Of a stretch of 22,300 bases of DNA, positions 1-16,357 are shown piece by piece. The position numbers and the translations under genes were made by a program. Positions within the stretch are counted from its first letter, which is position 1. Every line of letters begins with the position of its first letter. Origin of the DNA: a virus; the IMG/VR virus record IMGVR_UViG_3300042879_005354, positions 1 through 22,300 of that record; one strand, given 5' to 3'. The notes under the pieces are model-generated. The model did not search any database, was not told where the DNA came from, and saw only the letters and a program-made list of their open reading frames with translations.

Positions 1-766
1 GCTGTGCATTTTTGGCGGTTGTGTCTCCATATCGGCTGCGGATTTTGTTATATTCGTCATCGTTTTTTACTTTTCCGTAATATTTGGCAATCATTGCACA
101 TGTGGAGGAGAAACATTCCCGGTACCCTGTTTGCGATTGATTATCAAGTTGGTATTCATACGGGACGGTTAAGATTTTATTTTGTGTTGGCTCCGGCTTA
201 ATGGGCTCACTTGTCTTGGTTTCTCGGTCCATGATTTGAATGAGCTTTTTGCTGTAGTCGGGATCCGTTGCATACCCTTCTTTTACCAATAGCTCAGCGC
301 ATTCATTTCTGCTTGTGGCACGATTAACGCCTTTGTATTTACCAAAGTCTTTGTACCAACGATCAACTAAATAACAAACACAGGAATAAAGATCAGGAAA
401 ATCAATGAAACCGTCTTTGATGGTGATCCATTTTCCGTTTATGAATTCTTGGGTGTTGACGCTGGTTCCAGACCCTTTTAAACCAAAGAAATTATTTACT
501 CCTGAGGTGTGTTTGCCCCAGCTGCTTTCTAGTGCCCACTGGGCCGCAACACATTCTGGGTATTTGGCCCCGGCTTCTTTGGCGGCACTGATCAAACCTT
601 CCCATGTGTTGGGATACGGTTGCGTAGTGGCTTGTTCGTTTCTGTATTGTTTGGCGAACTCGGCCAGTGTGTTTGGCGGTGTGTTTTGCTCAAGCCAATC
701 CCAGGCTTTTAATTGATGTGGTAGTTCGTTATAGTATCTTGCCGCATCTTTTAAACGTATTGTCAT
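1..766 (-). CDS. Glucosaminidase + C39-like peptidase wall hydrolase (3' end cut by window)
   Basis: Open from ATG at 766 to the left edge without a stop, giving 255 visible residues; the C-terminus lies outside the window. Residues about 55-180 resemble the FlgJ-type endo-beta-N-acetylglucosaminidase fold: AAQWALESSWG (about 74-84) holds the usual catalytic Glu (E80), followed by NNFFGLKG, the standard second motif of this family. A Pro/Glu/Lys-rich linker (about 184-198) leads into a second domain whose RECFSSTCAMIAKYYG matches the start of peptidase C39-like domains, where the first Cys is the nucleophile. The protein probably cuts host peptidoglycan glycan strands and cross-links or peptides, either as an endolysin or as a virion-bound hydrolase. 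It lies just downstream of the two propeller-repeat genes on the same strand. Glucosaminidase is well supported; activity of the C39-like part is inferred because its His/Asp region is not visible. Confidence 0.85.
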   Translation of the reverse strand, partial: MTIRLKDAARYYNELPHQLKAWDWLEQNTPPNTLAEFAKQYRNEQATTQPYPNTWEGLISAAKEAGAKYPECVAAQWALESSWGKHTSGVNNFFGLKGSGTSVNTQEFINGKWITIKDGFIDFPDLYSCVCYLVDRWYKDFGKYKGVNRATSRNECAELLVKEGYATDPDYSKKLIQIMDRETKTSEPIKPEPTQNKILTVPYEYQLDNQSQTGYRECFSSTCAMIAKYYGKVKNDDEYNKIRSRYGDTTAKNAQ

Positions 767-783
767 TTTAGATGCCTCGTTGT

Positions 784-3276
784 TTACGTTAGATAATATT
801 GATAAACAGCTGGGACAACAGTTGCAGAAGAAGTACTATCAACAATGTATAAAATACTGCCGTAATATCCAACGCAGACTCCAGCAGAACTGGTTGTTTG
901 CAAAAGAACGCTCAATGACTTACTTTCGTATGCTGCAGTACTTATATCCCATGCAGTAGAACATGAGTATTGATAAACGGTATCGTTTATATTTCCAACA
1001 ATATAAAACTTGGTGCCGTCATCTTTAAAAAATAATCCTAATGGAGTAGTTTCTTGTGTTGCAACACTAAATGATTTACTGTCATACGATGCTGTACTTA
1101 CATCCCATGCAGTGGAACATGAGTATTGATATATGGTATCGTTTGCAACGCCAACAATATAAAACTTAGTGCCGTCATCTTTGAAAAATAATCCACTTGG
1201 ATTAGTTTCTTGCGTTGTAACACTGAATGATTTATTGTCATATGATGCCGTACTTACATCCCATGCCGTAGAACAAGAGTATTGATATACAGTATCGGTT
1301 GCGTTGCCGACTATATAAAATTTAGTGCCATCGTCTTTAAAAAATGCTCCATTTGGAGTAGTGTCTTGCAAGCCAACCCGTGCCCTAGCAAAAGCGCCAC
1401 TAGCTGTTTTATTAAAGAAAGCTGTGGTTACATCCCAGGGATTGCTGCAGTCGTATTGAAAAACTGAATCATTTGCGTTACCAGTAACATAAAAACGCGT
1501 GCCATCTGGTTTAAATGTAATATCTTGTGGAGATGTGTCTTGCAACGCCGCATTCATATTTTTAGCAGTAAAGCCAGCGTTTACGATATCCCAGGCTAGG
1601 GGAAGGTCATACTGCCAAACGGTATCGTTTGTTTGACCAACAATATATAACCTTGTGCCATCAGATTTAAACGCCAATCCATGCCCAGTAACTTCTTGTG
1701 CACTAACACTAAATGACTTGCTGTCATACGATGCAGTACTTACATCCCATGCTGTAGAACATGAGTATTGATAAATGGCGTCCGATGTAAAACCTAACAT
1801 GTAAAATGTAGTGCCATCATTTTTGAAAACTACTGAACTTGAACTTCCATCTTGTCCACCAACACTAAATGACTTGCTGTCATACGATGCAGTACTTACA
1901 TCCCATGCGGTAGAACATGAGTATTGATAAATGGCATCAGTTGTGTTGCCAATTACATAAAACTTAGTGCCGTCAGGTTTAAAGAATAATCCTGTTGGAG
2001 TACTTTCTTGCGTATTAACACTGAATGATTTATTGTCATACGATGCAGTACTGATATCCCATGCAGTAGAACATGCGTACTGAAAAACCGAATCACTTGT
2101 AGTTCCAACAATATAAAACTTAGTGCCATCATCTTTGAAAAATAATGCTTGCGGATTTGTTTCTTGTGTTTGGACACTAAATGATTTACTGTCATACGAT
2201 GCAGTACTGACATCCCACGCAGTAGAACATGAGTATTGATAGACGGTATCGTTTGTTTGTCCAACAATATAAAACTTGGTCCCATCATCCTTAAAATGCA
2301 CATCGGTTGAAAGACCTTCTTGTCCACCAATATAAAACCCACTTCCCGCTTGGTTGTTTGTGCTTACATCCCAAGCTGTAGATAAAGTGAATTCATAGAC
2401 CCTGTTATTGGTAGTACCAATTACATATAACTTGGTGCCATCAGATTTAAAACAAAGGCCTGTTGGTGTGCCTTCAAATAAAACCCTGCAGAGTTTACTA
2501 TCGTAAGACCCAGTGCTTACATCCCATGCTGTAGAACATGAGTATTGATAGACGGTATCGGTTGCACTGCCTATAATATAAAACTTAGTGCCATCATCCT
2601 TAAAAAATAATCCCTGTGGACTAGTTTCTTGCGTTGCAACACTAAACGATTTACTGTCATACGATGCAGTACTCACATCCCATGCAGTGGAACAGGAGTA
2701 TTGATATACGGTATCGTTTGTAGTGCCGACAATATAAAACTTAGTACCGTCATCTTTGAAAAATAATCCATTTGGCCCAGTCTCTTGCGCATTAATACTA
2801 AATGATTTACTGTCATAAGATGCTGTACTTACATCCCATGCTGTATAACAAGAATATTGATAGACGGTATCGTTGGTACTGCCAATAATATAAAACTTAG
2901 TACCGTCATCTTTGAAAAATAATCCATTTGGATTACTTTCTTGCGTATTAACACTGAATGACTTGCTATCATACGATGCAGTACTTACATCCCATGCAGT
3001 AGAACAAGAGTATTGATAGATGGTATCGTTTGTAGTGCCAACAGTATAAAACTTAGTTCCATCAGTACTGAATTGAACGTCTTGAAAAGCAGTTTCTGAT
3101 AATCCAAGCGGCCATTGCTTATTCGTGTAATACCCCTTGTCCACTTCCCAGGGTAGTCCAGTCCACTCGCCATCCCGGGTGAATTGCCCTTGGTCATAAA
3201 TCTCCCACATCCCAGGTTTACCCGAGGAGATTTGGCCGTAACCAACAGGTTTTTTACCGATGTAATTACCTTTCAT
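784..3276 (-). CDS. Propeller-repeat tail fibre/receptor-binding-like protein A
   Basis: 830 residues from ATG at 3276, with an A/G-rich leader (AAGGA) just upstream. The first 65 residues are unique and contain PGMWEIYDQGQF, similar to the short 'G-W-S/E-L/I-x-x-Q' stretch that many phage fibre proteins carry ahead of their repeats. The rest is 14 full repeats of about 52 residues plus a degraded last one. The core pattern is LFFKDDGTKFYIVG, then NDTVYQYSCSTAWDVSTA, then SYDSKSFSV. DGTKFY-x-x-G and VYQY look like the strands of beta-propeller blades. Repeats 5, 10 and 11 diverge and break the array into blocks. No signal peptide is seen. I infer a virion-surface adhesion protein from neighbouring fibre and hydrolase genes. 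It shares its repeat with the next gene upstream, from which it is separated by 15 nt. An enzymatic role cannot be excluded. Confidence 0.8.
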   Translation of the reverse strand: MKGNYIGKKPVGYGQISSGKPGMWEIYDQGQFTRDGEWTGLPWEVDKGYYTNKQWPLGLSETAFQDVQFSTDGTKFYTVGTTNDTIYQYSCSTAWDVSTASYDSKSFSVNTQESNPNGLFFKDDGTKFYIIGSTNDTVYQYSCYTAWDVSTASYDSKSFSINAQETGPNGLFFKDDGTKFYIVGTTNDTVYQYSCSTAWDVSTASYDSKSFSVATQETSPQGLFFKDDGTKFYIIGSATDTVYQYSCSTAWDVSTGSYDSKLCRVLFEGTPTGLCFKSDGTKLYVIGTTNNRVYEFTLSTAWDVSTNNQAGSGFYIGGQEGLSTDVHFKDDGTKFYIVGQTNDTVYQYSCSTAWDVSTASYDSKSFSVQTQETNPQALFFKDDGTKFYIVGTTSDSVFQYACSTAWDISTASYDNKSFSVNTQESTPTGLFFKPDGTKFYVIGNTTDAIYQYSCSTAWDVSTASYDSKSFSVGGQDGSSSSVVFKNDGTTFYMLGFTSDAIYQYSCSTAWDVSTASYDSKSFSVSAQEVTGHGLAFKSDGTRLYIVGQTNDTVWQYDLPLAWDIVNAGFTAKNMNAALQDTSPQDITFKPDGTRFYVTGNANDSVFQYDCSNPWDVTTAFFNKTASGAFARARVGLQDTTPNGAFFKDDGTKFYIVGNATDTVYQYSCSTAWDVSTASYDNKSFSVTTQETNPSGLFFKDDGTKFYIVGVANDTIYQYSCSTAWDVSTASYDSKSFSVATQETTPLGLFFKDDGTKFYIVGNINDTVYQYSCSTAWDISTAAYESKSLSVLLQTTSSAGVCVGYYGSILYIVDSTSSATVVPAVYQYYLT
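790..3081 (-). repeat. 156-bp coding repeat array A (14 full units and a degraded end)
   Basis: The unit is 156 bp (52 codons) on the minus strand and is conserved at DNA level. Recurrent words on the plus strand include GTAGAACATGAGTATTGATA and TCATACGATGCAGTACT. Most units are 52 residues; unit 4 is shorter and unit 11 is longer. The same unit builds the array in the neighbouring gene, so the two arrays are homologous and can recombine. Confidence 0.9.
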
Positions 3277-3291
3277 CTTTTTATTTTTTCC

Positions 3292-4977
3292 TTATTCTAA
3301 TAGAAGAGAGTATTGATAAACCGTATCAAATCCTGTGCCTACAATATAAAACTTGGTGCCGTCAGATTTAAAAAATAAAGTTTGTGGAGCATTTTCTTGC
3401 GTATTAACACTGAATGACTTGCTATCATATGATGCAGTACTTACATCCCATGCGGTAGAACAAGAGTATTGATAAACGGTATCGTTTGTAATACCAACAA
3501 TATAAAATTTAGTGCCGTCATCTTTAAAAAATATACCAGTTGGGGCATTGTCCTGTGTTACAACACTGAATGACTTACTGTCATACGATGCAGTACTTAT
3601 GTCCCATGCCGTAGAACAAGAGTATTGATAGACTGTATCGTTTGTATTACCAACAATATAAAATTTAGTCCCGTCATCTTTAAAAAATATACCAGTTGGG
3701 GCATTGTCCTGTGTTACAACACTGAATGACTTACTGTCATACGATGCAGTACTTATGTCCCATGCCGTAGAACAAGAGTATTGATATACGGTATCGTTTG
3801 TATTACCAATGATATAGAACTTAGTGCCATCAGATTTAAAAAACAATCCTGTTGGATTAGTTTCTTGCGTTGTAACACTGAATGATTTACTGTCATACGA
3901 TGCTGTGCTTACATCCCATGCTGTAGAACATGAGTATTGATATACTGTATCGTTTGTGGCTCCAACAATATAAAATTTGGTGCCATCAGTTTTAAAAGTA
4001 AGATCTTGAGGAGAACCATCTTGTCCACCCACATAGAAATAAGCGGCATAAGCCGTACTAACATCCCAGGGAGTTAATAGAGAGTATTCAAGTACGGTAT
4101 CGTTTGTATTACCAATGATATAGAACTTAGTGCCATCTGATTTAAAAAACAGTCCTCCAGGACTAGTTTCCTGTGTTCCAACACTAAATGATTTACTGTC
4201 ATACGATGCAGTACTTACATCCCATGCGGTAGAACAAGAGTATTGATAGACGGTATCGTTTGTAGTGCCGACAATATAAAACTTAGTGCCGTCATCTTTG
4301 AAAAATAATCCGGTTGGAGTAGTTTCTTGCGTTGTAACACTAAATGACTTACTGTCATACGATGCAGTACTCACATCCCATGCAGTGGAACATGAGTATT
4401 GATATATGGTATCGCTTCCGCTGCCAATAATATAAAACTTAGTACCGTCATCTTTGAAAAATAATCCAGTTGGCCCAGACTCTTGCGCATTAACACTAAA
4501 TGATTTACTGTCATAAGATGCTGTACTTACATCCCATGCAGTAGAACAAGAGTATTGATATATGGCATCGCTTCCGCTGCCAAGGATATAAAACGTAGTA
4601 CCATCTGATTTAAAAAACAATCCTGTTGGATTAGTTTCTTGCGTTGTAACACTGAATGATTTACTGTCATAAGATGCAGTGTTGATATCCCATGCAGTAG
4701 AACAGGAGTATTGATAGACGGTATCGTTTGTGCTGCCAACAATATAAAATTTAGTACCGTCTGATTTAAAAAACACGTCAGTAGAAGTTGTCTCTTGGTC
4801 AGCAATGCTGAATATTGGAAAATCAGATCGTGCACCGGCCAGCCCCCACGGCTGCGGCCATGCGGTATCAATAATCCGATCAACTTGCTGTTGAAGTCTC
4901 CAGACGCCAGACCACTGTGTGCCCTTCCGAGGCGGACGTGCGCCTGCGTATCCCGCTTCGAATGTTTCTAAGGACAT
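3292..4977 (-). CDS. Propeller-repeat tail fibre/receptor-binding-like protein B
   Basis: 561 residues from ATG at 4977. The first 67 residues are unrelated to protein A and contain SGVWRLQQQVDRI, again of the 'GVW-x-L-x-x-Q' type found near the start of phage fibre proteins; this is probably the virion attachment end. Nine full copies of the 52-residue repeat follow, plus a tenth that stops after VYQYSLLLE. Unit 5 is the divergent, shorter one (AYAAYFYVGGQDG). Units 7-9 are nearly identical at DNA level, pointing to very recent duplication. The protein ends within a blade-like unit, so the last blade may be completed elsewhere, as in velcro-closed propellers; this is inference. It sits 15 nt upstream of gene A on the same strand. 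Role inferred as host recognition; enzyme function unknown. Confidence 0.8.
   Translation of the reverse strand: MSLETFEAGYAGARPPRKGTQWSGVWRLQQQVDRIIDTAWPQPWGLAGARSDFPIFSIADQETTSTDVFFKSDGTKFYIVGSTNDTVYQYSCSTAWDINTASYDSKSFSVTTQETNPTGLFFKSDGTTFYILGSGSDAIYQYSCSTAWDVSTASYDSKSFSVNAQESGPTGLFFKDDGTKFYIIGSGSDTIYQYSCSTAWDVSTASYDSKSFSVTTQETTPTGLFFKDDGTKFYIVGTTNDTVYQYSCSTAWDVSTASYDSKSFSVGTQETSPGGLFFKSDGTKFYIIGNTNDTVLEYSLLTPWDVSTAYAAYFYVGGQDGSPQDLTFKTDGTKFYIVGATNDTVYQYSCSTAWDVSTASYDSKSFSVTTQETNPTGLFFKSDGTKFYIIGNTNDTVYQYSCSTAWDISTASYDSKSFSVVTQDNAPTGIFFKDDGTKFYIVGNTNDTVYQYSCSTAWDISTASYDSKSFSVVTQDNAPTGIFFKDDGTKFYIVGITNDTVYQYSCSTAWDVSTASYDSKSFSVNTQENAPQTLFFKSDGTKFYIVGTGFDTVYQYSLLLE
3295..4776 (-). repeat. 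156-bp coding repeat array B (9 full units plus a partial one)
   Basis: Same 156-bp unit as array A. Plus-strand positions 3515-3630 and 3671-3786 are identical over 116 bp, exactly 156 bp apart, which marks a recent unit duplication. The divergent unit encoded around 4010-4110 interrupts an otherwise uniform array. Confidence 0.9.
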
Positions 4978-6066: not shown

Positions 6067-8352
6067 CTACACAATGCGCCAATAACTACCTGAAGGCACA
6101 ACAACTGTGACGCCTGAATCAATAGACACAGGACCAGCAGATAGTCCGTTGTAGCCGCTGCCAATTGTCACACCGCTATTAATTGCTATTTTATTTTCAA
6201 AGATTAAAGACTGAAGAGCACCACCAAATAATCCACTGCCGCTAACCTGAATACTACCTGTTGTTGTTTGGGTGAAGTTAGCGAATGTAATATTACCAGT
6301 CGTTGCATTAATCGTTGTAACGTTAATCGTTTGACCGGTGATGGTTGCCCCGGAAAGATTGGTAAAGATACCGGTAACACCGGTAACTCCACCTGCGCTT
6401 AAATAATTACCAGTGATTGTTCCACCCGAGATGTTTTGGGCTTCTACTCGTGTGGAACCAGTGATGTAATTGAAAGTAGCGGCTTCTCCAAATACAAATT
6501 CACCCGATAACGCATCAGTGAAAACACCGGTGCAACCAGTTATTCTGGTGAACAGACCGGTGGCGCCTGTAATTGTTGCGCCAGAAACTCGTGTAGTAAA
6601 GACGCCACTGACGCCGGTGATATTACTAAAAGCAGCGTTTGTACCAGTGATTAAAGCACCTGAAAGCTGTGTTGTAAAAACACCTGATGCACCGGTGATA
6701 TTTGCAAACTGGCCAATATCCCCAGTTACAACAGCTCCAGATAAAGTGTTTGTGAATGTCCCAGAGATTCCGGTGAGCGCTTGAAACTGTCCTGTAACAC
6801 CGGTAATTAAAGCACCCGATAGTTGAGATGTAAATGTACCAGTGGTAGCCGTAAATGCTTCAAAAAGACCAGTTACGCCTGTGATCGTGGTACCGGAAAC
6901 CCGGGTAAAGTTACCAGAAACAAAGTTTCCTGTTGTTGCATTAACCGTAGATCCGGTTATTGTTGCTCCACTTAATGTTGTTGTAAAAACACCTGTAACG
7001 GCAGTAAGTCTTGTGAAGTTTCCAGAAGCGCCTGTAATTGTTGCACCGGAAATAGATGTTGCGCCATAAATCTCGTTGCCGTTTAACTCTCCAAATATCC
7101 CGGTAATTCCTGTGATTGTACCGCCGGAAACAGTACCGCTAACAACAAGGTTGGTTGAGATGGTACCACTACCGCTAATCAATAGGTTTCCGGCAGCTGT
7201 AATGTCGCCAGTTGTACTGATTGCTGGAATAGTAAGAGTGTTTGTAAAAACACCTGTCAACGCTTCAATGCGTTGGAATAAACCACTAACACCCGTAATT
7301 GTTGCACCGGAAAGTCTTGCGGTATAAATACCAGTTGCACCAGTAATTGTCGTAAACCTTCCTGTATCTCCCGTTAGGACACTGCCGGATAATTGTGTTG
7401 TAAAGACGCCAGAAACACCTGTAATATTTGAAAACTGACCTGCGTCTCCGGTAATTGTTGAGCCAGAAACACTAGTGGTAAAAGTTGCGCCAGAGCCTGT
7501 GATGGTTCTAAATAAACCGGTAGTACCTGTGACGGTTAGACCAGATACCCTAGTTGTGAATGTGCCGGAAACACCGGTTAAGTTTGCAAATAAACCAGTA
7601 GATCCAGTGACTGTTAAACCTGAAACTTGCGTTGTAAAAATACCTGAAACGCCAGTTACTTGACCAAATAAACCGGTGGCACCTGTAACAGTTAAACCAG
7701 ATACTCTGGTTGTAAATACCCCGGATACACCAGTTAAGTTTGCAAATAAACCGGTGCTGCCTGTGACGGTAAGACCAGAGACTTGTGTTGTAAAAACACC
7801 GGATACACCGGTAATATTTGTCCCGCTAAGACTAGAAAATAAACCAGTGGCACCAGTGATTGTTTGTCCAGTAACAACGCTAAATAAGCCGGTTGTCCCC
7901 GTTACAGTTACACCGCTTACGCGAGTAAAATCACCTGTACCAACAGTTTCTGTGCCAACTGTTAAAGTTGTAATATTACCCGTGGATGCATTAAGGTTTA
8001 AACCGGCAAATGTATCACCGGTAAAAGTAACGCCACTTGTTGTGCCGCTAAGTACGGTGCCACTATTGACAACTAGGTAACTAAACGTACCTGTTTGTGT
8101 AACGTTAACATTCGCTAGGTTGAAAGCACCGCTAATGGACAGAGAGCCTTCAACAGTTAAAGACCCCGCAACCGTACCGCCAGTTAACTGAAGGTAATAA
8201 TTATTAAAATATTGTTTGGTATTTGTAAACGTTAATTTTTTATTTTTTAGTCCCGGATCAACTTCTGCAACATCTACGACCATGAGAAGGTCGTCGTCAT
8301 TGATATTTGACGAAGAAATTGCAGGAAGTTCTGTTATCCGCCTATTGGCCAC
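6067..8352 (-). CDS. Long repetitive tail-fibre protein
   Basis: 761 residues. The start is GTG at 8352; no in-frame ATG lies upstream, and the N-terminus MANRRITELPAISSSNINDD with DLLMVVDVAEVDP and LKNKKLTF is the usual N-terminal layout of phage tail-fibre attachment domains. From about residue 141 to 640 the protein is a long run of 13-residue half-units paired into 26-residue units, of the form VSGLTVTGATGLF followed by xxxTGVSGVFTTR. The regular Gly/Thr/Val pattern suggests a beta-solenoid or fibrous trimer. The last 120 residues are less regular and may be the tip. It is probably a host-receptor fibre. A hairpin carrying the likely ribosome-binding bases sits 14 nt upstream. Confidence 0.85.
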   Translation of the reverse strand: MANRRITELPAISSSNINDDDLLMVVDVAEVDPGLKNKKLTFTNTKQYFNNYYLQLTGGTVAGSLTVEGSLSISGAFNLANVNVTQTGTFSYLVVNSGTVLSGTTSGVTFTGDTFAGLNLNASTGNITTLTVGTETVGTGDFTRVSGVTVTGTTGLFSVVTGQTITGATGLFSSLSGTNITGVSGVFTTQVSGLTVTGSTGLFANLTGVSGVFTTRVSGLTVTGATGLFGQVTGVSGIFTTQVSGLTVTGSTGLFANLTGVSGTFTTRVSGLTVTGTTGLFRTITGSGATFTTSVSGSTITGDAGQFSNITGVSGVFTTQLSGSVLTGDTGRFTTITGATGIYTARLSGATITGVSGLFQRIEALTGVFTNTLTIPAISTTGDITAAGNLLISGSGTISTNLVVSGTVSGGTITGITGIFGELNGNEIYGATSISGATITGASGNFTRLTAVTGVFTTTLSGATITGSTVNATTGNFVSGNFTRVSGTTITGVTGLFEAFTATTGTFTSQLSGALITGVTGQFQALTGISGTFTNTLSGAVVTGDIGQFANITGASGVFTTQLSGALITGTNAAFSNITGVSGVFTTRVSGATITGATGLFTRITGCTGVFTDALSGEFVFGEAATFNYITGSTRVEAQNISGGTITGNYLSAGGVTGVTGIFTNLSGATITGQTINVTTINATTGNITFANFTQTTTGSIQVSGSGLFGGALQSLIFENKIAINSGVTIGSGYNGLSAGPVSIDSGVTVVVPSGSYWRIV
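6430..7932 (-). repeat. 78-bp (26-residue) fibre repeat array
   Basis: Thr/Gly/Ser/Val-rich units of 26 residues, each made of two similar 13-residue halves (VSGxTxTGxTGLF and xxxTGVSGVFTTx). Between about residues 188 and 270 units alternate between a TTQ and a TTR version, giving a 156-bp higher-order period. Toward the C-terminus units drift and spacers appear. Confidence 0.8.
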
Positions 8353-9647: not shown

Positions 9648-10030
9648 ACAGACGCGAAAAACTTGTTGCTTCGGTCATCGGCCCTGATCTTGACAATACC
9701 AAAGCCAAGATGCTTGATGCCACCATTAAGTTAATTCTTGGCGACATGGGGCAGCAATACTTCAAGCTGTGGCAACTCGAAGGACCTGGCGTCATGGTCT
9801 TCCAGCCTGAAGACAAAGGGCGCTCAATGTTTTACTGGACACTCAAGGAAATCCATTCGGCCCAGGAAAGTTGTGAAAAAGAAAATAACGGTGATCTAGC
9901 CGAAAGCTTTCGACGCATTTTGGAAGCAGCACAAAAGATTGATCCGGAAGAAAAAGCTGGTTACGTCATTAATGATGCAGAAGGAATACGTTATTTTGAA
10001 ATTGATTACAACAAGACAACAGAAAAGTAA
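9644..10030 (+). CDS. Hypothetical protein
   Basis: 128 residues from ATG at 9644; the start overlaps the preceding stop as ATGA and its own stop overlaps the next start as TAATG, so it lies in a tightly coupled chain. Acidic and helical, with GPGVMVFQPEDKGRSMFYWTL in the middle and a C-terminal beta-like stretch EGIRYFEIDYN. There is no recognisable catalytic motif or transmembrane region. Context places it with early nucleotide/DNA-metabolism genes. Function unknown; the reading frame is well supported by both overlaps. Confidence 0.7.
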   Translation: MNRREKLVASVIGPDLDNTKAKMLDATIKLILGDMGQQYFKLWQLEGPGVMVFQPEDKGRSMFYWTLKEIHSAQESCEKENNGDLAESFRRILEAAQKIDPEEKAGYVINDAEGIRYFEIDYNKTTEK

Positions 10031-10620
10031 TGGGTCTTGCAAGCGTTTATAAAGGTCTAAATGAAGACCGCGAATGGATCAGCAATTACGATTTGATTGC
10101 ATCGGCGCATGAGCTGATGGGTGGCATCGAGCTTGACCCTGCAAGTTCCAAGGTTGCCAATGAACATGTCAATGCTGAAAAGTTCTATACACCTTTGGAC
10201 GATGGACTAAACGTTCAAGAGTGGTTTGGGAATGTGTACTTGTTTCCTCCCGCTGGCGCATATTTTTTTGACAAGAAGAATGAGCGATGGAAAAAAACTA
10301 GGGCTTCTTCTCCGTCTTTGTCCTCGTCCCATGCCGTATGGTTTCGTCGTCTCTACAAAGAATGGTTAAAGGGGGAAGTAAATCAAGGGCTTTATTTTAC
10401 CAACTGCCCTGACATGATTCGTTACGAACAGAAGATCTTTGATTTTCCTGTTTGCATCTTGCGTACTCCACCTATTTTGAATTGCAATTCAAGCACGGGA
10501 ATGACGCGGAAGCGGACTTGTACATCATTAGTTGTTTACCTTCAGCCCCAGGGAGATGCAAGTGCCGCAACTGAGAAATTTATCAAGATCTATTCTCCAA
10601 AAGGGCGTGTTTTAGTTTAG
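10030..10620 (+). CDS. Dam-family (DNA N6-adenine methyltransferase-like) protein with altered catalytic motif
   Basis: 196 residues from ATG at 10030. The N-terminal third follows the phage Dam family (PF05869-like): REWISNYDLIASAHELMGG, then IELDPASSKVAN (DPAS at 36-39), then EKFYTPLDDGL and EWFGNVYLF. Active members next carry an N/D-PP-Y/F/W motif that positions the adenine amino group; here residues 72-75 are FPPA. The following part (WFRRLYKEWLKGEVNQGLYFTN, then FDFPVCILRTPP) retains the family's helical and strand pattern. So the fold seems kept while the catalytic motif is lost or reshaped. It may have become a DNA-binding, antirestriction or structural variant, or use a non-canonical site. 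Encoded directly before dCTP deaminase (26-nt gap). The family is fairly sure, activity doubtful. Confidence 0.75.
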   Translation: MGLASVYKGLNEDREWISNYDLIASAHELMGGIELDPASSKVANEHVNAEKFYTPLDDGLNVQEWFGNVYLFPPAGAYFFDKKNERWKKTRASSPSLSSSHAVWFRRLYKEWLKGEVNQGLYFTNCPDMIRYEQKIFDFPVCILRTPPILNCNSSTGMTRKRTCTSLVVYLQPQGDASAATEKFIKIYSPKGRVLV

Positions 10621-10646: not shown

Positions 10647-11234
10647 ATGTCTGTTCTGGCCGACTGGGAAATCAAGAAACTTGCGGAAGAAGAAGAGATG
10701 ATCTCTCCGTTTCAAGATCGTCTTATCAGTGAAAAAAACGGACAAAAGATCTTGAGCTATGGATTGAGTTCCTACGGCTATGACATTCGCTTGTCTCCCA
10801 AGCAATGCTTAATTTTTGGCAAGGTTCAATCCGGTGATTGTGACCCCAAGGATTTCGATAAGAACATCTTGAAGCCTGCCGAATTGCTGGAAGACGAGAA
10901 AGGCCAATATTTTTTACTGCCGCCATACGGCTATTGTTTGGGTGTGGCCCAAGAGCGATTGAAACTTCCGCGTGATGTAACCGTTGTTGCTGTCGGCAAG
11001 TCAACCTATGCTCGCTCTGGGATCCTGGTCAACATCACACCCGCCGAATCAGGCTGGGAAGGTTACTTGACTTTGGAAATCAGCAACTGCACCGGACTCT
11101 TTAATCGCATTTACGCTGACGAGGGGATTACACAATTGCTTTTCTATCGCGGAAACCCGTGTCATGTCACCTACCAAGATCGCAAAGGCAAGTATCAAAA
11201 CCAAGAAAAGCAAGTGGTGTTTTCTCGGGCTTAA
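10647..11234 (+). CDS. dcd: dCTP deaminase
   Basis: 195 residues from ATG at 10647, close to the usual length of about 190. It converts dCTP to dUTP, supplying dTMP synthesis for phage DNA replication, in the cytoplasm as a trimer. Diagnostic stretches are SYGLSSYGYDIRLSP (37-51), GKSTYARSGILVNITPAE (117-134) and GWEGYLTLEISNCTG (136-150). The Glu of TLE (E144) corresponds to the catalytic Glu of bacterial Dcd, and the GKSTYAR segment binds the triphosphate in the family. No separate thymidylate synthase or dUTPase appears in the window, so whether it is a bifunctional deaminase/dUTPase is open. Its stop TAA abuts the stop of the next, convergent gene with no spacer. Confidence 0.9.
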   Translation: MSVLADWEIKKLAEEEEMISPFQDRLISEKNGQKILSYGLSSYGYDIRLSPKQCLIFGKVQSGDCDPKDFDKNILKPAELLEDEKGQYFLLPPYGYCLGVAQERLKLPRDVTVVAVGKSTYARSGILVNITPAESGWEGYLTLEISNCTGLFNRIYADEGITQLLFYRGNPCHVTYQDRKGKYQNQEKQVVFSRA

Positions 11235-11609
11235 TTAACCAAACGGACGGCCAAATCTAGGTTGGGGCTTGTTGGCATAATTTGTGCCACCGCCCCTTCC
11301 GAAGCGATCACCTTGACTTGGTAGGGTGGTACCAGCGATTGAAGCTTCTGTCCTGGGCGTTTTGCCGCGAATGGTCGGCTCGTTGACTAAAGCTTGTTGG
11401 CGAAACTTACCAGCGCTTTTTGCGGCTCGCATGAATTTGGCAATACGACTTTGATCGTCATTGATGGGGGCAACATTTCCCCTTTGTTCAGGATCAACGC
11501 GACGCAAGTCGGTGTCGTAAGCCTGTTCAGGCCTTAAGTCAGATACCTCGGCTCCGGACGTACCAGAGAACTGCCGAGGATCATAGCGGGAGCTGTATAC
11601 ATCTGCCAT
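11235..11609 (-). CDS. Hypothetical protein, disordered and basic
   Basis: 124 residues from ATG at 11609, with a TATATA box about 21 nt upstream. Rich in Arg, Gly, Gln, Asp and Pro; SSRYDPRQFSGTSGAEVSD and the C-terminal GDRFGRGGGTN, PQPRFGRPFG look disordered, with one helical patch (QSRIAKFMRAAKSAGKFRQQAL, residues about 53-74). No domain recognised. Composition recalls small virion or scaffold-like proteins of phages. It is the only minus-strand gene between two plus-strand groups and its stop codon abuts the dcd stop. Confidence 0.6.
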   Translation of the reverse strand: MADVYSSRYDPRQFSGTSGAEVSDLRPEQAYDTDLRRVDPEQRGNVAPINDDQSRIAKFMRAAKSAGKFRQQALVNEPTIRGKTPRTEASIAGTTLPSQGDRFGRGGGTNYANKPQPRFGRPFG

Positions 11610-11648
11610 GTTAATATTGTAATTGAAGGTATATAAAACCTATATCCC

Positions 11649-11999
11649 ATGCACGGCGCTGCTGGTTTCTTAGATAGTTTTGTACAAGACGAAGTTCGTT
11701 GTCGTTGTCTGACAGAAGAGGACTTTGGTGCCCCTCTGGACAATGCAGAGAACGATGTTCCGTTGTACGATATGTACAACCGTGGATTAGCAGCATGCGA
11801 GCAGGGACTCGAGAGAACGAATCTGGCATTGGAGGGGATGGATCGGCCAGGGAAGACCGGTTATATTCCGAGCGTGGAAGAAGCGAGCCGGTATCCTGGG
11901 ACGCTGCCGATGCCGAAAGCAAAACTATTGGTTCTTCCTCCAGCGGATCAAACGAGCGAGGGCGCTCTGTCAGCGAAGCGCCGTGGTTTACTCCGGTAG
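11649..11999 (+). CDS. Hypothetical protein overlapping the DUF3310 frame
   Basis: 116 residues from ATG at 11649, 39 bp from the divergent start at 11609. Balanced, protein-like composition: LTEEDFGAPLDNAENDVPLYDMYNRG, ACEQGLERTNLALEGMDRP, GYIPSVEEASRYPGTL. No domain recognised. Its last 200 bp overlap, in another frame (-1), the reading frame that holds the DUF3310 domain. It may be an independent gene, or the N-terminal part of one DUF3310 protein joined by a -1 frameshift. I see no classic slippery heptamer in the overlap (closest run: GCAAAACTA near 11919), and a sequencing indel cannot be excluded. The last 20 residues look less protein-like than the rest, in line with a frame change near the end. 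Confidence 0.55.
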   Translation: MHGAAGFLDSFVQDEVRCRCLTEEDFGAPLDNAENDVPLYDMYNRGLAACEQGLERTNLALEGMDRPGKTGYIPSVEEASRYPGTLPMPKAKLLVLPPADQTSEGALSAKRRGLLR

Positions 12000-12277
12000 A
12001 AGAATCTGAGTGTAAAGACGGTGTTTGCCCGGTCCCCTGGCTGACAAAACCGATTATTCAAGAAGATGTCGTCAATCATCCTTCCCATTACACGGAAGGT
12101 GGTGTTGAGTGCATTGAAGCAATTGAAGCACAGTTAAGCCACGAAGAATATCGCGGTTATTTGAAGGGGTGTATTGCTAAGTATGTGTGGCGAGAGCGCC
12201 ATAAGGGCGGCTTGGAGTCCCTTAAAAAGGCAAGGTGGTACCTTGAGCGCCTTATTGAATTAGAAGAGCCTGGTTAG
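11795..12277 (+). CDS. DUF3310-domain protein
   Basis: The C-terminal 70 residues, from VVNHPSHYTEGGVECIEAIEAQ through GYLKGCIAKYVWRERHKGG to SLKKARWYLERLIELEE, match the DUF3310 family: VNHPxHY start, Y/W-x-x-G-CIxKYVWR-x-x-KGG core, LKKAxWYL end. In phages this domain occurs alone or attached to nucleotide-kinase-type proteins such as T7 gp1.7, so a link with nucleotide metabolism is plausible but unproven. The start is uncertain: the first in-frame ATG is at 11795 (160 residues), and an upstream TTG at 11699 is also open, but the first 80 residues are Ser/Gly/Arg/Glu-rich and look like an out-of-frame reading of the overlapping gene. A frameshift joining from that gene is the alternative. 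The stop overlaps the convergent nblA-like stop by four bases. Confidence 0.75.
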   Translation: MRAGTRENESGIGGDGSAREDRLYSERGRSEPVSWDAADAESKTIGSSSSGSNERGRSVSEAPWFTPVEESECKDGVCPVPWLTKPIIQEDVVNHPSHYTEGGVECIEAIEAQLSHEEYRGYLKGCIAKYVWRERHKGGLESLKKARWYLERLIELEEPG

Positions 12278-12570
12278 GCAACCTGAAACGGGTCGTCGTC
12301 TTCGTCTTCGTCGTAGTCAGCTGCGAAACAGGCGGCGGCCAGTTCGGCCAGCTCTAATTCCGTGGGAACATCCATGTCAAGTTGGATGTTTTCATCTGCC
12401 AGTATTTCTTTGACTGCTTGCCACTCAAGTAACCGCTGGTGATACAGGTTAAGCAGGGCAATTCTTAATTCGTCCCAGGTCATTTCCTCAGACTGGATTT
12501 CTGCTTTTCGCATGGCGAATTGCAGCTCTAAAGGAAGTTCAAACCCTCGTGCTTCGGCTGATCGCTCCAT
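12274..12570 (-). CDS. nblA: NblA-like phycobilisome degradation adaptor with acidic tail
   Basis: 98 residues from ATG at 12570, preceded by CAGG; an in-frame TTG at 12606 overlaps the lysozyme stop but the ATG is preferred. NblA is a small adaptor that brings phycobilisome rods to the ClpC protease, triggering antenna breakdown. Residues about 11-57 fit its pattern: LPLELQF (NblA: LSLEQQF), a helix AMRKAEIQSEEMT with the conserved Met-Ser/Thr turn, DELRIALLNLYHQ (NblA: QAxxFLxxLYxQ) and WQAVKEIL (NblA: xYxELL). Typical NblA ends there at about 60 residues. Here about 40 more follow, ending in the acidic run DYDEDEDDDP. The gene follows the lysozyme at 26 nt on the same strand. Main alternative: an unrelated two-helix protein with chance resemblance. 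Confidence 0.7.
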   Translation of the reverse strand: MERSAEARGFELPLELQFAMRKAEIQSEEMTWDELRIALLNLYHQRLLEWQAVKEILADENIQLDMDVPTELELAELAAACFAADYDEDEDDDPFQVA

Positions 12571-12596
12571 GGATGACCTGAGTCTATTCAATGATT

Positions 12597-13262
12597 CTAA
12601 TCCCAATCTTCAGTAGATAAAATAGAACGATGTTCGGAATTTAAATTCCAGGGGTCAGAAACGATGTCAAATTCGTTTGCAAACTCAGCCAGCAAATAAG
12701 GATTCACGTTTTTTTCCAATTTGCGAATAGCATTGACTTGCTTTTTGGATGCTGTGTAATTCCGAAATGCGGTCAATAAAACCTCTGTGGAACTCCAGGG
12801 GCAATCCTCTACTTCTGATAGGAATAACTCAACTTCTTCCCTGCGTCTGTCGATCAGCCCCCCAATGACACGATGGTCTTCATCAAAGATCCAGCGTGAC
12901 ATTTCCGCTGCAACACCATACCAATTCTCATTTGCAATGCAGTCGATCAGTTCGGAATACAAGAATGGTTGCCAACCGATGGAATGCACAAAAGAAACAA
13001 GTGCTTCTTTCATGGTTGGCTCTAAGATTAAATTAATTTTTTCTAAATCTTCGCTGATATTTTGTAGTTCATATTCCAGGTATTCCAACGCTTTCTCTTT
13101 GGTGCAACAGTGCCCTCTTAAAACGGGCGAACCGTCAGGGTAAAATTGGGTTCCATAACCAAACGTATAGGGCGCTCCTCCTGTTTTGGGGTCTGGATAC
13201 GCTTTTTCACTGAAACCTTCGTAATTGCGAATTAATTCAATTGCGCGAAAAAAAGATTTCAT
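12597..13262 (-). CDS. T4-type lysozyme (GH24 muramidase)
   Basis: 221 residues from ATG at 13262; an upstream in-frame TTG lies inside a hairpin and is unlikely. N-terminal IELIRNYEGFSEKAYPDP holds the catalytic Glu (E15) and Asp (D24), nine apart as in T4 lysozyme (E11, D20), and YTFGYGTQF supplies the usual Thr and the GYGT turn. The C-lobe contains ALVSFVHSIGW and GLIDRRREEVELFL, the standard 'GL-x-x-RR-x-x-E' end of the family. It cleaves the MurNAc-GlcNAc bond of peptidoglycan at lysis or entry. No signal peptide is visible, so export would need a holin. The last 80 residues extend beyond T4 lysozyme length and hold a Trp-rich part without known motif. First gene of a pair with nblA. 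Confidence 0.87.
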   Translation of the reverse strand: MKSFFRAIELIRNYEGFSEKAYPDPKTGGAPYTFGYGTQFYPDGSPVLRGHCCTKEKALEYLEYELQNISEDLEKINLILEPTMKEALVSFVHSIGWQPFLYSELIDCIANENWYGVAAEMSRWIFDEDHRVIGGLIDRRREEVELFLSEVEDCPWSSTEVLLTAFRNYTASKKQVNAIRKLEKNVNPYLLAEFANEFDIVSDPWNLNSEHRSILSTEDWD

Positions 13263-13284
13263 GGGGGTGACTATTATTACCCCC
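13263..13284 (-). promoter_or_regulatory. GC-rich hairpin abutting the lysozyme start codon
   Basis: Minus-strand GGGGGT, a 10-base loop, ACCCCC, ending immediately before the ATG at 13262. It would block ribosome access and includes the only G-rich stretch that could act as a ribosome-binding site. A TATGAT box lies just upstream (13286-13291, minus strand). Could control lysozyme translation, for example by delaying it, or be an operator. Transcription starting from that box would begin inside the hairpin, so promoter and hairpin cannot both be fully active in the simplest model. Confidence 0.4.
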
Positions 13285-13326
13285 AATCATACACAATTCT
13301 CAAGAACTCTAACGACTGTGTTTCGG

Positions 13327-13449
13327 TTAGCCCTGGCCACGATAAGCTTTTTTGCCAGGCTTTAGTTTAGTGTTTACAGAACGTCCTTGGCGAGTCTTCT
13401 TAGGCTTGGACTCAAGTTTGACTGAAGAGCTGCTCTTTGGTTTTGCCAT
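13327..13449 (-). CDS. Small basic protein, 40 residues
   Basis: Starts at ATG 13449 (MAKPKSSSSV), reads 40 codons, stops TAA at 13327-13329. Extremely rich in Lys/Arg/Ser/Gly: KLESKPKKTRQGRSVNT and a C-terminal KKAYRGQG. Very short basic proteins with KKTRQG near the middle and a YRGQG end occur, to my memory, in several cyanophage genomes as conserved hypotheticals; this match supports it as a real gene although nothing functional is known. The charge suits binding to nucleic acid or acidic virion parts. It lies between the lysozyme (64 nt away) and the next small basic protein (44 nt). Confidence 0.65.
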   Translation of the reverse strand: MAKPKSSSSVKLESKPKKTRQGRSVNTKLKPGKKAYRGQG

Positions 13450-13493
13450 GGTATTGAAATGTGGCTTGCGTATGCTACATCAAAAATTCGTTG

Positions 13494-13793
13494 TCACCAC
13501 TTTACACGATGAGACCAATATCTAGCCGACATGATGTCAGGGTTAGCGTCTTGGGCATTGTGGCGAGCGTAATAAGAACGCCTTCTCGCCTTGTCTTTCT
13601 CTGTTTTAGGGTTTTTGCCGGCGCCTTCCACGCCTTGCTGGCCGAATCGAATAATTTTTTCCTCCCCGCCCTTACAAGCTTTAACCACATGTGATTTTGT
13701 GGGGTGCCCAGGGGTGCGCTTGGGCTTGTTGCACGCCATCTTATCTTTTGCAAGCTTAGCTGCAGATGCTGCTTTTTTGCGTTTTTCAGACAT
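13494..13793 (-). CDS. Small basic conserved-type phage protein
   Basis: 99 residues from ATG at 13793, which overlaps the stop of the large upstream gene as TAATG. Lys/Arg-rich: SEKRKKAASAAKLAKDKM, CNKPKRTPGHPTKSHVVKAC, EEKIIRFGQQGVEGAG, and a C-terminal block with SYYARHNAQ and MSARYWSHRVKW. I recall this C-terminal layout (IRFGQQG, F/YxARH, MSAxYWxxKVKW) in many phages of marine and freshwater cyanobacteria, always hypothetical. No membrane segment and no zinc-binding layout beyond two Cys. Probably a nucleic-acid-associated or virion protein. It is transcribed with the 854-residue virion-type gene. Confidence 0.7.
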   Translation of the reverse strand: MSEKRKKAASAAKLAKDKMACNKPKRTPGHPTKSHVVKACKGGEEKIIRFGQQGVEGAGKNPKTEKDKARRRSYYARHNAQDANPDIMSARYWSHRVKW

Positions 13794-16357
13794 TAGAAAC
13801 CTTTGAACATTGAAGTAAATTCACCAAGAATTTGTTGACCAGATTTTGATTTCTGGTAACCTTCTTCTTCATCGTCTGTGCCTAATCCTAGTTTAAAGTA
13901 ACTATCCAAATCAGAGGAAGACGTTGTAGTTTTAGAGGTTGTCGTTGGTTTTGGCTCATCAAAAAAGCTTTCAATTGTACCAAGGGATGCAAAGGGATCA
14001 CTTAAGTCCAAGCCATAAGTTTTAAGCGCTTCGTTGGATCCAGCCTTTGTTAATAATGTTTGTTCTGATCGATCTAAATCAGGGAAAAACTTTTGGTAAA
14101 ACTCATCTTCTGTACCTTGGTAACCAGCACTTTGGAATGTTTTAAATAGTTCAGTTTGTGGTTTAGACATCTCATCTTTATAATCTTCCGGTCTTTCAAT
14201 ATATGTCAAACCAAGTATTTCTTGGGTGGGTTTTTGCCTTTTTTCGTTTAAGTATTTAATTTCAGATCTAATTTCTTCTGCCGTTCCAGTGCGGAGAGTG
14301 TTCTTAATATATTCTTTTAATTCTTCGACGGTTCCTTTGAAGTCTGTTAAACCATATCGTTTTAAAACTTCGTCCCATGTGCCTTTATCATTCGGATCTA
14401 AACCCGCAAGCATTTGGTCGGCAAATTCATCTGGTGTAATAAATTGACCAAAAACAGATCCTTGCTTTAAAGCCTCTTCTTTCAAGGCTGGAAGTATATC
14501 TTTATAAATTTGATCTGTAACTTTAGAGGAATTTAGAATGTCGTCAGCGGAATCGTAGCCTCTACTTTGACCTTTAACCTGGAAATGCATGCGAGCAAAT
14601 TGTTCTTTATTGTTTAAATCAATTCCAAATCGATATGCTTGCTGAGCCCAATAAGTATCTCCTTTTTTAGCTGTTTCCCAGTCTGAATTAACCGTGTTTG
14701 CTTGATCAGCGTACGCAGTTGCTTTTGCTGTGTTTCCAGAGGGATTAAAGTAGAACTCAGAGTTAAAATAACGATCCGGTGTTTTACTGATACTATCTAA
14801 GTATGCTTTAGAGCGCAAATCTGCAGTAAGCTTAGCAGCGTTTACAATATCTTGTGTTTGAAAGGGGTTTTGCTCTTCTTGGCGAACATCTAAATACTCA
14901 ACAAATTCATTCATTGAACGAGATTCATCAAAGCGCGGTTGAAGATATTTTTCAATAAATTCTTTAGCAAAATTTGCATCGATGTCGAGCATTTGCTGAA
15001 CTTCGCCTGTTGTATAACCAAGCTTTTGCGCCTTTGAGTATTTCTCCTTAAGCGTGCTATCAAACCATTGTTGCCAATTGTATGTTGCGTTATTTTGAAC
15101 GCCAGTGATTCCCCGGAGGTTTTTAAGCAATGATTCTTCAGCTTTACCTGCAGACGTAAAAGAGAGTACTCCCCCAACCCCACTATCACCAAGTATTGAA
15201 TCGGACAGTGTTTGATTAATATCCATGATTTCACTAAAGCCACTAAAGCCTCTCATCAAATCGAGCATTTGCTCTTTTTGTTTTGCTTTTGTAATTTCAG
15301 CAATAGTATCCTTCAAGACGTTTTGGGCTAAAGCGCCGAATTTTTTCACATCAACCTGCGCTTTCTCGCCAACTGCTTGATTGAGTGCATCTTCTAATTC
15401 TGTGATGCCATAACCGGCATTGGCGTTGTAGTTGAAAGAAATTTGTTTGTCTTCTGGTCTTTGGGAAAGGCGGAATAATGCGGCAAAATCATCCTTGTTA
15501 TTGACATCCAAATAATTCTTTTTTGCAAGGTCGTCCCAATAAGGGTCACCGTTTTTAGCTTTATTCCACTCTTCAGCAATCTTTGGAACGTTCAACAAGC
15601 GATCTGTTTGTGTTTGTGTGTCCACGCCTAATTGCAAGGCGCGAACAGCTTGAAGGTCTGCATCTGTTGGTTTTTTTTCTACATACGAAGTAGCAGCGGA
15701 AGTGGCTTCCGGAGCGTTGCCGCGCAACCCAGCTGCTTTGCCTTGAGTCGTGTAATGCTGAAGATAATATCCATTTTCGCCGTATCTTTCCGTAACGTCA
15801 ATATCGTCATTGGCGACCGCATTTTTCCACGCTTCTTCTACCTGCGGGTTTGTTTGTTTGTAATATTTAGGATCAAAAGCTCCATACAAAGGTTTAGCTC
15901 CCAGGTTTGTGTCCCAGGTTTGTAATTTTTCTGTCCTATAAAACGTTTTATACTGCTCTTCTAAATCTTTCTTTAACGCGGGATCAACGTTGCCGATGTT
16001 TATTAGTACCTGGCGTTGGATTGTGTAATCACCACCACGAGTTGAATTTGCAGTAGCAATAGTAGTGTCGTACGCTTGGTTTTTATATGTATTGGTTTGG
16101 TTAATTGCAGCGTTACTTGCGTTTTCTTTTCTATTTAATTCGTTAACACGAATATTATCGGGAAGGGGTGCGCTTCGTGTTTGATACTCGTCCCTTCCGA
16201 CGCAACTACCCCAAAAGTCCCTTACATCGCATCTATCACTAGTCTTAACAGAATAGTTATAAGACTCAGGATAATCAGTTTTTAAATTGGTGGGATTATC
16301 GGTTTTTTCGTATGTGACTTTCCACTTTCTGGAAGCAGGCTCGTAATAAATGCCCAT
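13793..16357 (-). CDS. Large virion-associated-type protein with triplicated motif
   Basis: 854 residues from ATG at 16357, overlapping the upstream stop as TAATG. Hydrophilic, helical and repeat-bearing. A motif of about 40 residues appears three times: from W177 (following DPKYYKQTNPQVEEA), W264 (AEEWNKAKNGDPYWDD...DVNNKDDFA) and W560 (SDWETAKKGDTYWAQQ...DLNNKEQFA). Copies 1 and 3 both end in a 'Q/KGK/Q-x-x-G-x-RG/YD' stretch. The first copy recalls the 'YY-x-x-NPxV' segments in bacterial surface proteins. The C-terminal 60 residues are Ser/Thr then acidic (DDEEEGYQ), probably disordered. No enzyme motif or signal peptide seen. Length, composition and neighbours point to an internal or tail virion protein; exact role unknown. 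Confidence 0.7.
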   Translation of the reverse strand: MGIYYEPASRKWKVTYEKTDNPTNLKTDYPESYNYSVKTSDRCDVRDFWGSCVGRDEYQTRSAPLPDNIRVNELNRKENASNAAINQTNTYKNQAYDTTIATANSTRGGDYTIQRQVLINIGNVDPALKKDLEEQYKTFYRTEKLQTWDTNLGAKPLYGAFDPKYYKQTNPQVEEAWKNAVANDDIDVTERYGENGYYLQHYTTQGKAAGLRGNAPEATSAATSYVEKKPTDADLQAVRALQLGVDTQTQTDRLLNVPKIAEEWNKAKNGDPYWDDLAKKNYLDVNNKDDFAALFRLSQRPEDKQISFNYNANAGYGITELEDALNQAVGEKAQVDVKKFGALAQNVLKDTIAEITKAKQKEQMLDLMRGFSGFSEIMDINQTLSDSILGDSGVGGVLSFTSAGKAEESLLKNLRGITGVQNNATYNWQQWFDSTLKEKYSKAQKLGYTTGEVQQMLDIDANFAKEFIEKYLQPRFDESRSMNEFVEYLDVRQEEQNPFQTQDIVNAAKLTADLRSKAYLDSISKTPDRYFNSEFYFNPSGNTAKATAYADQANTVNSDWETAKKGDTYWAQQAYRFGIDLNNKEQFARMHFQVKGQSRGYDSADDILNSSKVTDQIYKDILPALKEEALKQGSVFGQFITPDEFADQMLAGLDPNDKGTWDEVLKRYGLTDFKGTVEELKEYIKNTLRTGTAEEIRSEIKYLNEKRQKPTQEILGLTYIERPEDYKDEMSKPQTELFKTFQSAGYQGTEDEFYQKFFPDLDRSEQTLLTKAGSNEALKTYGLDLSDPFASLGTIESFFDEPKPTTTSKTTTSSSDLDSYFKLGLGTDDEEEGYQKSKSGQQILGEFTSMFKGF

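Follow-up and report, generated by a model that had tools for sequence, protein, structure and literature searches.

The window analysed here, 22,300 nucleotides of the IMG/VR virus record IMGVR_UViG_3300042879_005354, encodes a small protein that is almost certainly a homolog of NblA. We put at about 70% the probability that this protein is a divergent Clp adaptor of the NblA family, directed against phycobilisomes and equipped with an added C-terminal arm; the phycobilisome role is inferred from the homology to NblA. According to published descriptions, NblA bridges ClpC and phycobiliproteins, leading to degradation of the antenna by the Clp protease (PMC4103541; PMC7966870). Phage-borne nblA is known as a trait of scattered phages, whereas the divergent, armed form described here appears to be fixed within a lineage, that of phages resembling Synechococcus phage S-EIV1.

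The NblA-like gene and its homology to NblA

The sequence-only reading of this DNA had proposed an nblA-like frame at 12274-12570, which proves to be a real, conserved gene on the minus strand with precisely those limits (Table 1). A TTG at 12606 is a possible longer start, but the ATG codons of relatives align with the one at 12570, and many relatives have four extra codons ahead of the ATG so aligned. The NblA motif pattern reported in that reading is present as L12-P-L-E-L-Q-F18 (LxLExQF), M30-T31, L39-L-N-L-Y-H-Q45 (LxxLYxQ) and E55-I-L57, and the core that it delimited, residues 11-57, coincides with the limits of the Pfam alignment (NblA profile positions 1-47 of 50).

Table 1. Coordinates of the NblA-like gene, its parts and its neighbours in the window
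Feature	Position	Strand	Remarks
NblA-like gene	12274..12570	-	98 aa, ATG at 12570 conserved, stop at 12274; sole Pfam match NblA
NblA core, residues 11-57, predicted helices 14-28 and 32-59	12400..12540	-	PF04485 placement; register of Nostoc NblA
C-terminal arm, residues 59-98	12277..12396	-	Conserved E60, P69, E73, L74 and L77; predicted helix 71-83; acidic low-confidence tail
Phage lysozyme (endolysin)	12597..13262	-	Pfam Phage_lysozyme 2.6e-19; directly upstream of the NblA-like gene
Hairpin up to the lysozyme start codon	13262..13285	-	Covariation; preceded by TGTATGAT at 13293-13286
DUF3310-type gene, convergent	11699..12277	+	Pfam DUF3310 2.5e-18; stop overlaps the end of the NblA-like gene

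At the relaxed thresholds named in the sequence-only reading, NblA (PF04485) is the only Pfam-A family matched by the window protein at E<=1 (E 0.0088). The score of 16.9-17.1 bits lies below the curated cut-off of 25 bits, and we therefore refer to the protein as NblA-like. Its only PDB match at E<=10 is likewise NblA (1ojh, E 0.023), and a profile of the phage family also finds 1ojh best (E 4.5e-4), with the NblA structure 3cs5 at 0.72; PDB matches of this profile to HRD1, the span of which includes the acidic tail, were set aside. When the whole 22.3-kb record was scanned with PF04485 at E<=10, a single place was found, 12400-12540 (E 9.6e-5). This threshold is loose, since matches also occur in four of 14 control genomes, although they exceed the cut-off only in Synechococcus elongatus. 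Nine records scanned in the same way have one match each, eight of them belonging to the S-EIV1-like lineage and including S-EIV1 itself (1.9e-6 to 8.8e-4) and the ninth being Ma-LMM01 (1.9e-14).

All 29 proteins of our family alignment (A1) match NblA in Pfam at E<=1, and NblA ranks first in 27. Two of them exceed the 25-bit cut-off, one with 27.3 bits and 76% identity to the window protein (L009) and one with 26.5 bits (L103), while the other 27, including the window protein, fall below it. DUF4030 outscores NblA in two proteins (L016 and L054). Weak Pfam matches to PHF12_MRG_bd (17/29, best 0.019), TADA2A-like_3rd (7/29) and DUF4030 (4/29, best 0.0036) were judged to be due to chance.

In the reverse direction, the A1 profile was run at E<=0.01 against 292 whole genomes from the cyanobacterial phylum. 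It matches 29 places, distributed over 26 of these genomes, and comparison of coordinates showed that every one of the 29 overlaps a PF04485 match, that is, an nblA gene; PF04485 itself, at E<=0.001, has matches in 104 of the same genomes. Alignment of A1 with 36 NblAs, none of which is from the phage family, by hhalign gave 96.7% and is gapless over the 49 residues 10-58. On trimmed columns, at which 24 of the 36 NblAs are free of gaps, the profile-to-profile score is 50.9, compared with 21.2 for the best of 500 column shuffles; in an untrimmed version one of 200 shuffles scored very high, an artefact of shuffled gap columns. An NblA model reported 105 of 112 distinct family members, 104 of them above the best residue shuffle (9.2 bits), and found no match in the remaining seven, one of which is a fragment. 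Bits were used for this control because 173 of the 2240 residue shuffles reach E<=0.01 on the one-sequence scale. Pfam, the reciprocal genome search and the profile comparison thus bear out the homology on which the proposed NblA identity was based.

Several other searches returned nothing, within the following limits. With the NblA model of NCBIfam, the window protein is not reached at E<=1, although the same model gives the recognised NblA of Ma-LMM01 only 14.4 bits against a cut-off of 100. At E<=1 the window protein matches none of the PHROGs families, and four relatives match families there only at chance level. The family profile at E<=10 has no match in the records of Ma-LMM01 or PaV-LD, although both carry nblA. 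A scan of genome contigs gave matches with the Nostoc NblA core and none with the Ma-LMM01 NblA; the Nostoc core as query found no phage record, and a plasmid search produced no match. There was also no match in 383 genomes of one small-genome family, a result that says nothing about hosts since this group may be non-photosynthetic. The PF04485 matches L259, L260 and L261, in genomes of 2.8-3.1 Mb, were flagged as containing internal stop codons, which may be a frame-counting effect or may represent decaying nblA.

Divergence from NblA and a conserved C-terminal arm

At the 20 positions where at least 75% of the 36 NblAs keep the same residue, the majority residue of the phage family is identical at 10, similar at three and different at seven. 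The seven include the position of Nostoc K53, which is mostly A, Q or E in the phage family; the position of Nostoc L51 is occupied by I, M or L. In Nostoc NblA, L51 and K53 are C-terminal residues for phycobiliprotein binding, for which K53 is important. All 36 NblAs compared have Glu in the N-terminal motif; the 112 distinct members have E at this position in 46%, H in 43% and Q in 11%, and the Phe of this motif is F in 56% and L in 43% of the phage family. The window protein carries LPLELQF, a putative form of the motif said to bind ClpC. Most of the NblAs end in HxWG soon after K53; this ending is absent from the phage proteins, which extend about 40 residues further.

Within the resulting arm, the stretch containing the conserved residues listed in Table 1 is strongly kept among the 112 distinct members. 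No match in either 292 or 388 genomes covers the arm (59-98) in full: in the 292-genome search profile position 60 is the limit, apart from one match that reads through stop codons and reaches 74, and in the 388-genome search the matches, at 102 places, reach position 65 at most. Purifying selection acts on the NblA-like gene. Of 406 pairs, 47 gave a usable dS in the core and 124 in residues 59-78, the values being mostly high, and the respective medians of dN/dS are about 0.08 and about 0.20. The arm probably replaces contacts that are made in NblA by K53 and the HxWG end, and together with the altered end of the second helix it may bind another antenna protein or may have exchanged the target altogether.

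The AlphaFold2 model of the window protein (mean pLDDT 76.7) places the two core helices in the same register as those predicted for Nostoc NblA (9-22 and 27-55) once an alignment offset of 5 is allowed for. The core is thus predicted to form the helix-turn-helix of NblA, and not some other fold of the kind that would have counted against the sequence-only reading. A third helix is predicted within the arm and is followed by the low-confidence acidic tail. A Foldseek search of the PDB with this model listed no NblA, a negative that carries no weight because the model of true Nostoc NblA, used as a control, also misses NblA there. Foldseek against viral models gave nothing meaningful, and VIA-align, in which only four chains were compared, listed a single row that is not NblA.

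Fixed linkage to lysozyme in the S-EIV1-like lineage

The closest named relative of the window protein is AHV82245.1 of Synechococcus phage S-EIV1 (KJ410740.1), with 55% identity over 82 residues, and S-EIV1 is the only match at E<=1 among 50,697 phage records. The cyanophage setting suggested from the sequence is therefore well founded. S-EIV1 was isolated from a high Arctic lake and infects Synechococcus, and from this host we infer that the host of the window phage contains phycobilisomes. AHV82245.1, annotated in its record as a "hypothetical protein", shares the arm, the acidic tail and the location between lysozyme and a convergent DUF3310-like gene, but differs from the window protein at the N-terminus and in the last residues.

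Three scans yielded further relatives: 355 in the first pass of IMG/VR (80 kept), 31 in the second scan (all kept) and at least 568 in the third (80 kept). In the window, 26 bases separate the lysozyme stop codon from the ATG of the NblA-like gene. In 108 of the 112 loci, the same strand carries lysozyme upstream at a distance of 30-121 bases; in the other four (L056, L066, L085 and L102) the contig starts too near the gene to show it. Downstream, a convergent DUF3310-type gene is found at a distance of 3-595 bases in all 112 loci. This gene marks the border to the set of genes on the other strand, so that the NblA-like gene ends a block read from one strand. As counting loci that were found through the NblA-like gene itself would introduce bias, lysozyme was also used as the query. 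This gave 43 loci, partly on the same contigs, and the NblA-like gene comes next in 41; in the other two the contig ends one base past the match, hence the gene is present in 41 of 41 testable cases. The NblA-like gene is therefore kept throughout the S-EIV1-like cyanophage contigs examined and is not a lone acquisition.

Other features were noted in the window. Upstream of lysozyme, 13327-13449 (-) contains a very basic frame of 40 codons, the last of which appear by eye to be conserved in relatives. The open-ended frame at 2-766 (-) resembles, by eye, a glucosaminidase with a cysteine-peptidase-like stretch after it, and is possibly a second wall enzyme besides lysozyme. Two long proteins encoded at 784-3276 and 3292-4977 (-) consist of numerous similar repeat units, each of about 50 residues (FFKDDGTKFYIVG...DTVYQYSCSTAWDVSTASYDSK), look propeller-like by eye and are perhaps tail or receptor-binding proteins, and the product of 6067-8352 (-) has a repeated unit of the TGVSGVFTTxLSGATITG type that is tail-fibre-like by eye. 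Outside the lysozyme block, on the opposite strand, a DNA methyltransferase-like protein (10030-10620, +; phrog_111, 3.6e-10) is encoded beside a dCTP deaminase-like protein (10647-11234, +; 4.4e-25).

A hairpin at the lysozyme start codon

A hairpin of ten pairs lies directly before the lysozyme ATG and ends at the start codon. Pairing holds in 98.9% of cells across 18 distinct sequences, with both sides altered in 19 cells, which was not equalled in any of 500 shuffles, and slid structures pair at 59.5% at most; across five hairpin measures, shuffles reach two (66/500 and 85/500) and never the other three. A pattern scan of IMG/VR located the hairpin on 69 contigs, and all 67 readable frames behind it encode the same lysozyme. 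The NblA-like family is next in 63 of the 64 hairpin contigs with sufficient room, the exception (L425) having a broken lysozyme frame and ending too soon. S-EIV1 and four other loci (L012, L016, L023 and L045) have a hairpin of different sequence at the same place, and no hairpin of this form is seen in the displayed members of a divergent subgroup (L296-L313).

The hairpin is probably the leader of a unit comprising lysozyme and the NblA-like gene, in which it might mask the start codon or form a cap at the 5' end of the transcript and thereby time lysis. The octamer TGTATGAT ahead of it resembles an extended -10 box, although the promoter scan did not list this site. Around the NblA-like gene, two promoter-like sites and one terminator-like site show no excess over shuffles, and no Rfam family exceeds the threshold in 11500-14200. 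The 26-base spacing and the conserved hairpin before lysozyme suggest that the two genes form one transcription unit, which would probably be expressed late.

Possible function and alternative explanations

In the scheme that we favour, lysozyme and the NblA-like gene are probably transcribed as one late unit and the NblA-like product would dimerise. Its N-terminal LPLELQF could then engage the ClpC unfoldase of the host while a phycobiliprotein or linker would be bound through the second helix together with the arm. Degradation of the phycobilisome by ClpCP would follow, releasing amino acids and lowering light absorption late in infection.

A different function for the same machinery is unlikely in our estimation but deserves consideration, namely that an NblA-derived Clp adaptor still recruits ClpC and uses the arm to deliver a target outside the phycobilisome, such as a regulator or defence protein of the host, or a protein of the phage that must be removed for lysis to be timed. 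Retention of the core despite the loss of K53 and the HxWG end, together with the gain of a conserved arm and the fixed pairing with lysozyme, is consistent with such a role, as is the presence of the gene in all testable contigs of the lineage, which is beyond expectation for an optional metabolic gene. However, nothing observed points to another target, the entire two-helix core is recognisably that of NblA, and remote NblAs of marine phages are reported to be active (PMC9602691). A related but tentative suggestion, which we regard as more doubtful than probable, is that NblA, at first an optional borrowed gene, has become a permanent component of the lysis unit across the whole S-EIV1-like lineage. 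Its product would be an NblA-type Clp adaptor whose recognition arm arose in the phage and which removes some other target, such as a phycoerythrin, a linker or a protein outside the antenna, with the start-codon hairpin coupling its timing to that of lysozyme.

Given the location after lysozyme at the end of a same-strand block, single Pfam scores that are mostly below the cut-off and the general abundance of helical hairpins, the protein might instead be a small structural or lysis-related phage protein that acquired an NblA-like hairpin by convergence and acts with lysozyme or in the virion. We consider this very improbable, since the reciprocal genome search at E<=0.01 retrieved nblA genes exclusively (29/29), two relatives score above the NblA cut-off, the profile score far exceeds that of all 500 shuffles, and the register is gapless with matching helices. 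Low scores and lost NblA positions would also be expected of a functionless, decayed remnant of NblA, but purifying selection, near-invariant residues in 112 distinct members and retention in every testable lineage contig make decay scarcely credible.

If the phycobilisome adaptor is active, dismantling of the antenna would be a built-in step of infection by S-EIV1-like phages, and the conserved arm would offer a handle on how Clp adaptors choose their targets. In an ocean survey the S-EIV1 group is given as 3.3% of cyanophage content, and the survey table for this group lists hli and ptoX but not nblA (PMC5332604). An 89-kb prophage reported in Synechococcus elongatus UTEX 3055 is described as most similar to S-EIV1 (PMC9239245), and work in a laboratory cyanobacterium may therefore be possible.

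Comparison with known NblA systems

Cyanobacterial NblA, described as a protein of about 60 residues (PMC7966870), shares with the phage family the helix-turn-helix core, the LxLExQF-like start, the M-S/T turn and the LY-x-Q motif (PF04485; 1ojh, 3cs5). It has neither the third helix nor the acidic tail, whereas the phage family lacks K53 and the HxWG end. Phage-borne nblA as such is already known, but the armed, lineage-kept and lysozyme-linked form is not named in the passages available from the literature, in which the set of Nadel 2019 is represented through citing papers only; nor do the passages dealing with S-EIV1 name an nblA in that phage. Marine cyanophages (the Nadel 2019 set, S-TIM5 and S-SCSM1) are reported to have nblA-like genes that are remote homologs (PMC9602691), and thus resemble the window gene in their remote, phage-borne homology to NblA. 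Neither PF04485 nor the family profile matches at E<=10 in S-TIM5 (JQ245707) or S-SCSM1 (MK867354), for both of which nblA is reported, or in the marine podoviruses Syn5 (EF372997) and P60 (AF338467). As PF04485 finds no match there, the reports for S-TIM5 and S-SCSM1 rest on a remoter homology than that of the family described here.

The NblAs of the freshwater cyanophages Ma-LMM01 and PaV-LD are also phage-borne homologs, but they exceed the Pfam cut-off (PF04485 E 1.9e-14 and 1.2e-12) and escape the profile of the phage family, whereas the window protein falls below that cut-off. In Ma-LMM01, nblA adjoins nrdA and encodes a product of 79 residues without a comparable arm. The Ma-LMM01 gene is described as being expressed early (PMC4103541), in contrast to the probably late expression of the gene in the window. 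Phage NblAs are reported to be expressed during infection and, when produced in cyanobacteria, to bring on a loss of phycobilin, and nblA from marine viral metagenomes is reported to be active in S. elongatus (PMC9602691).
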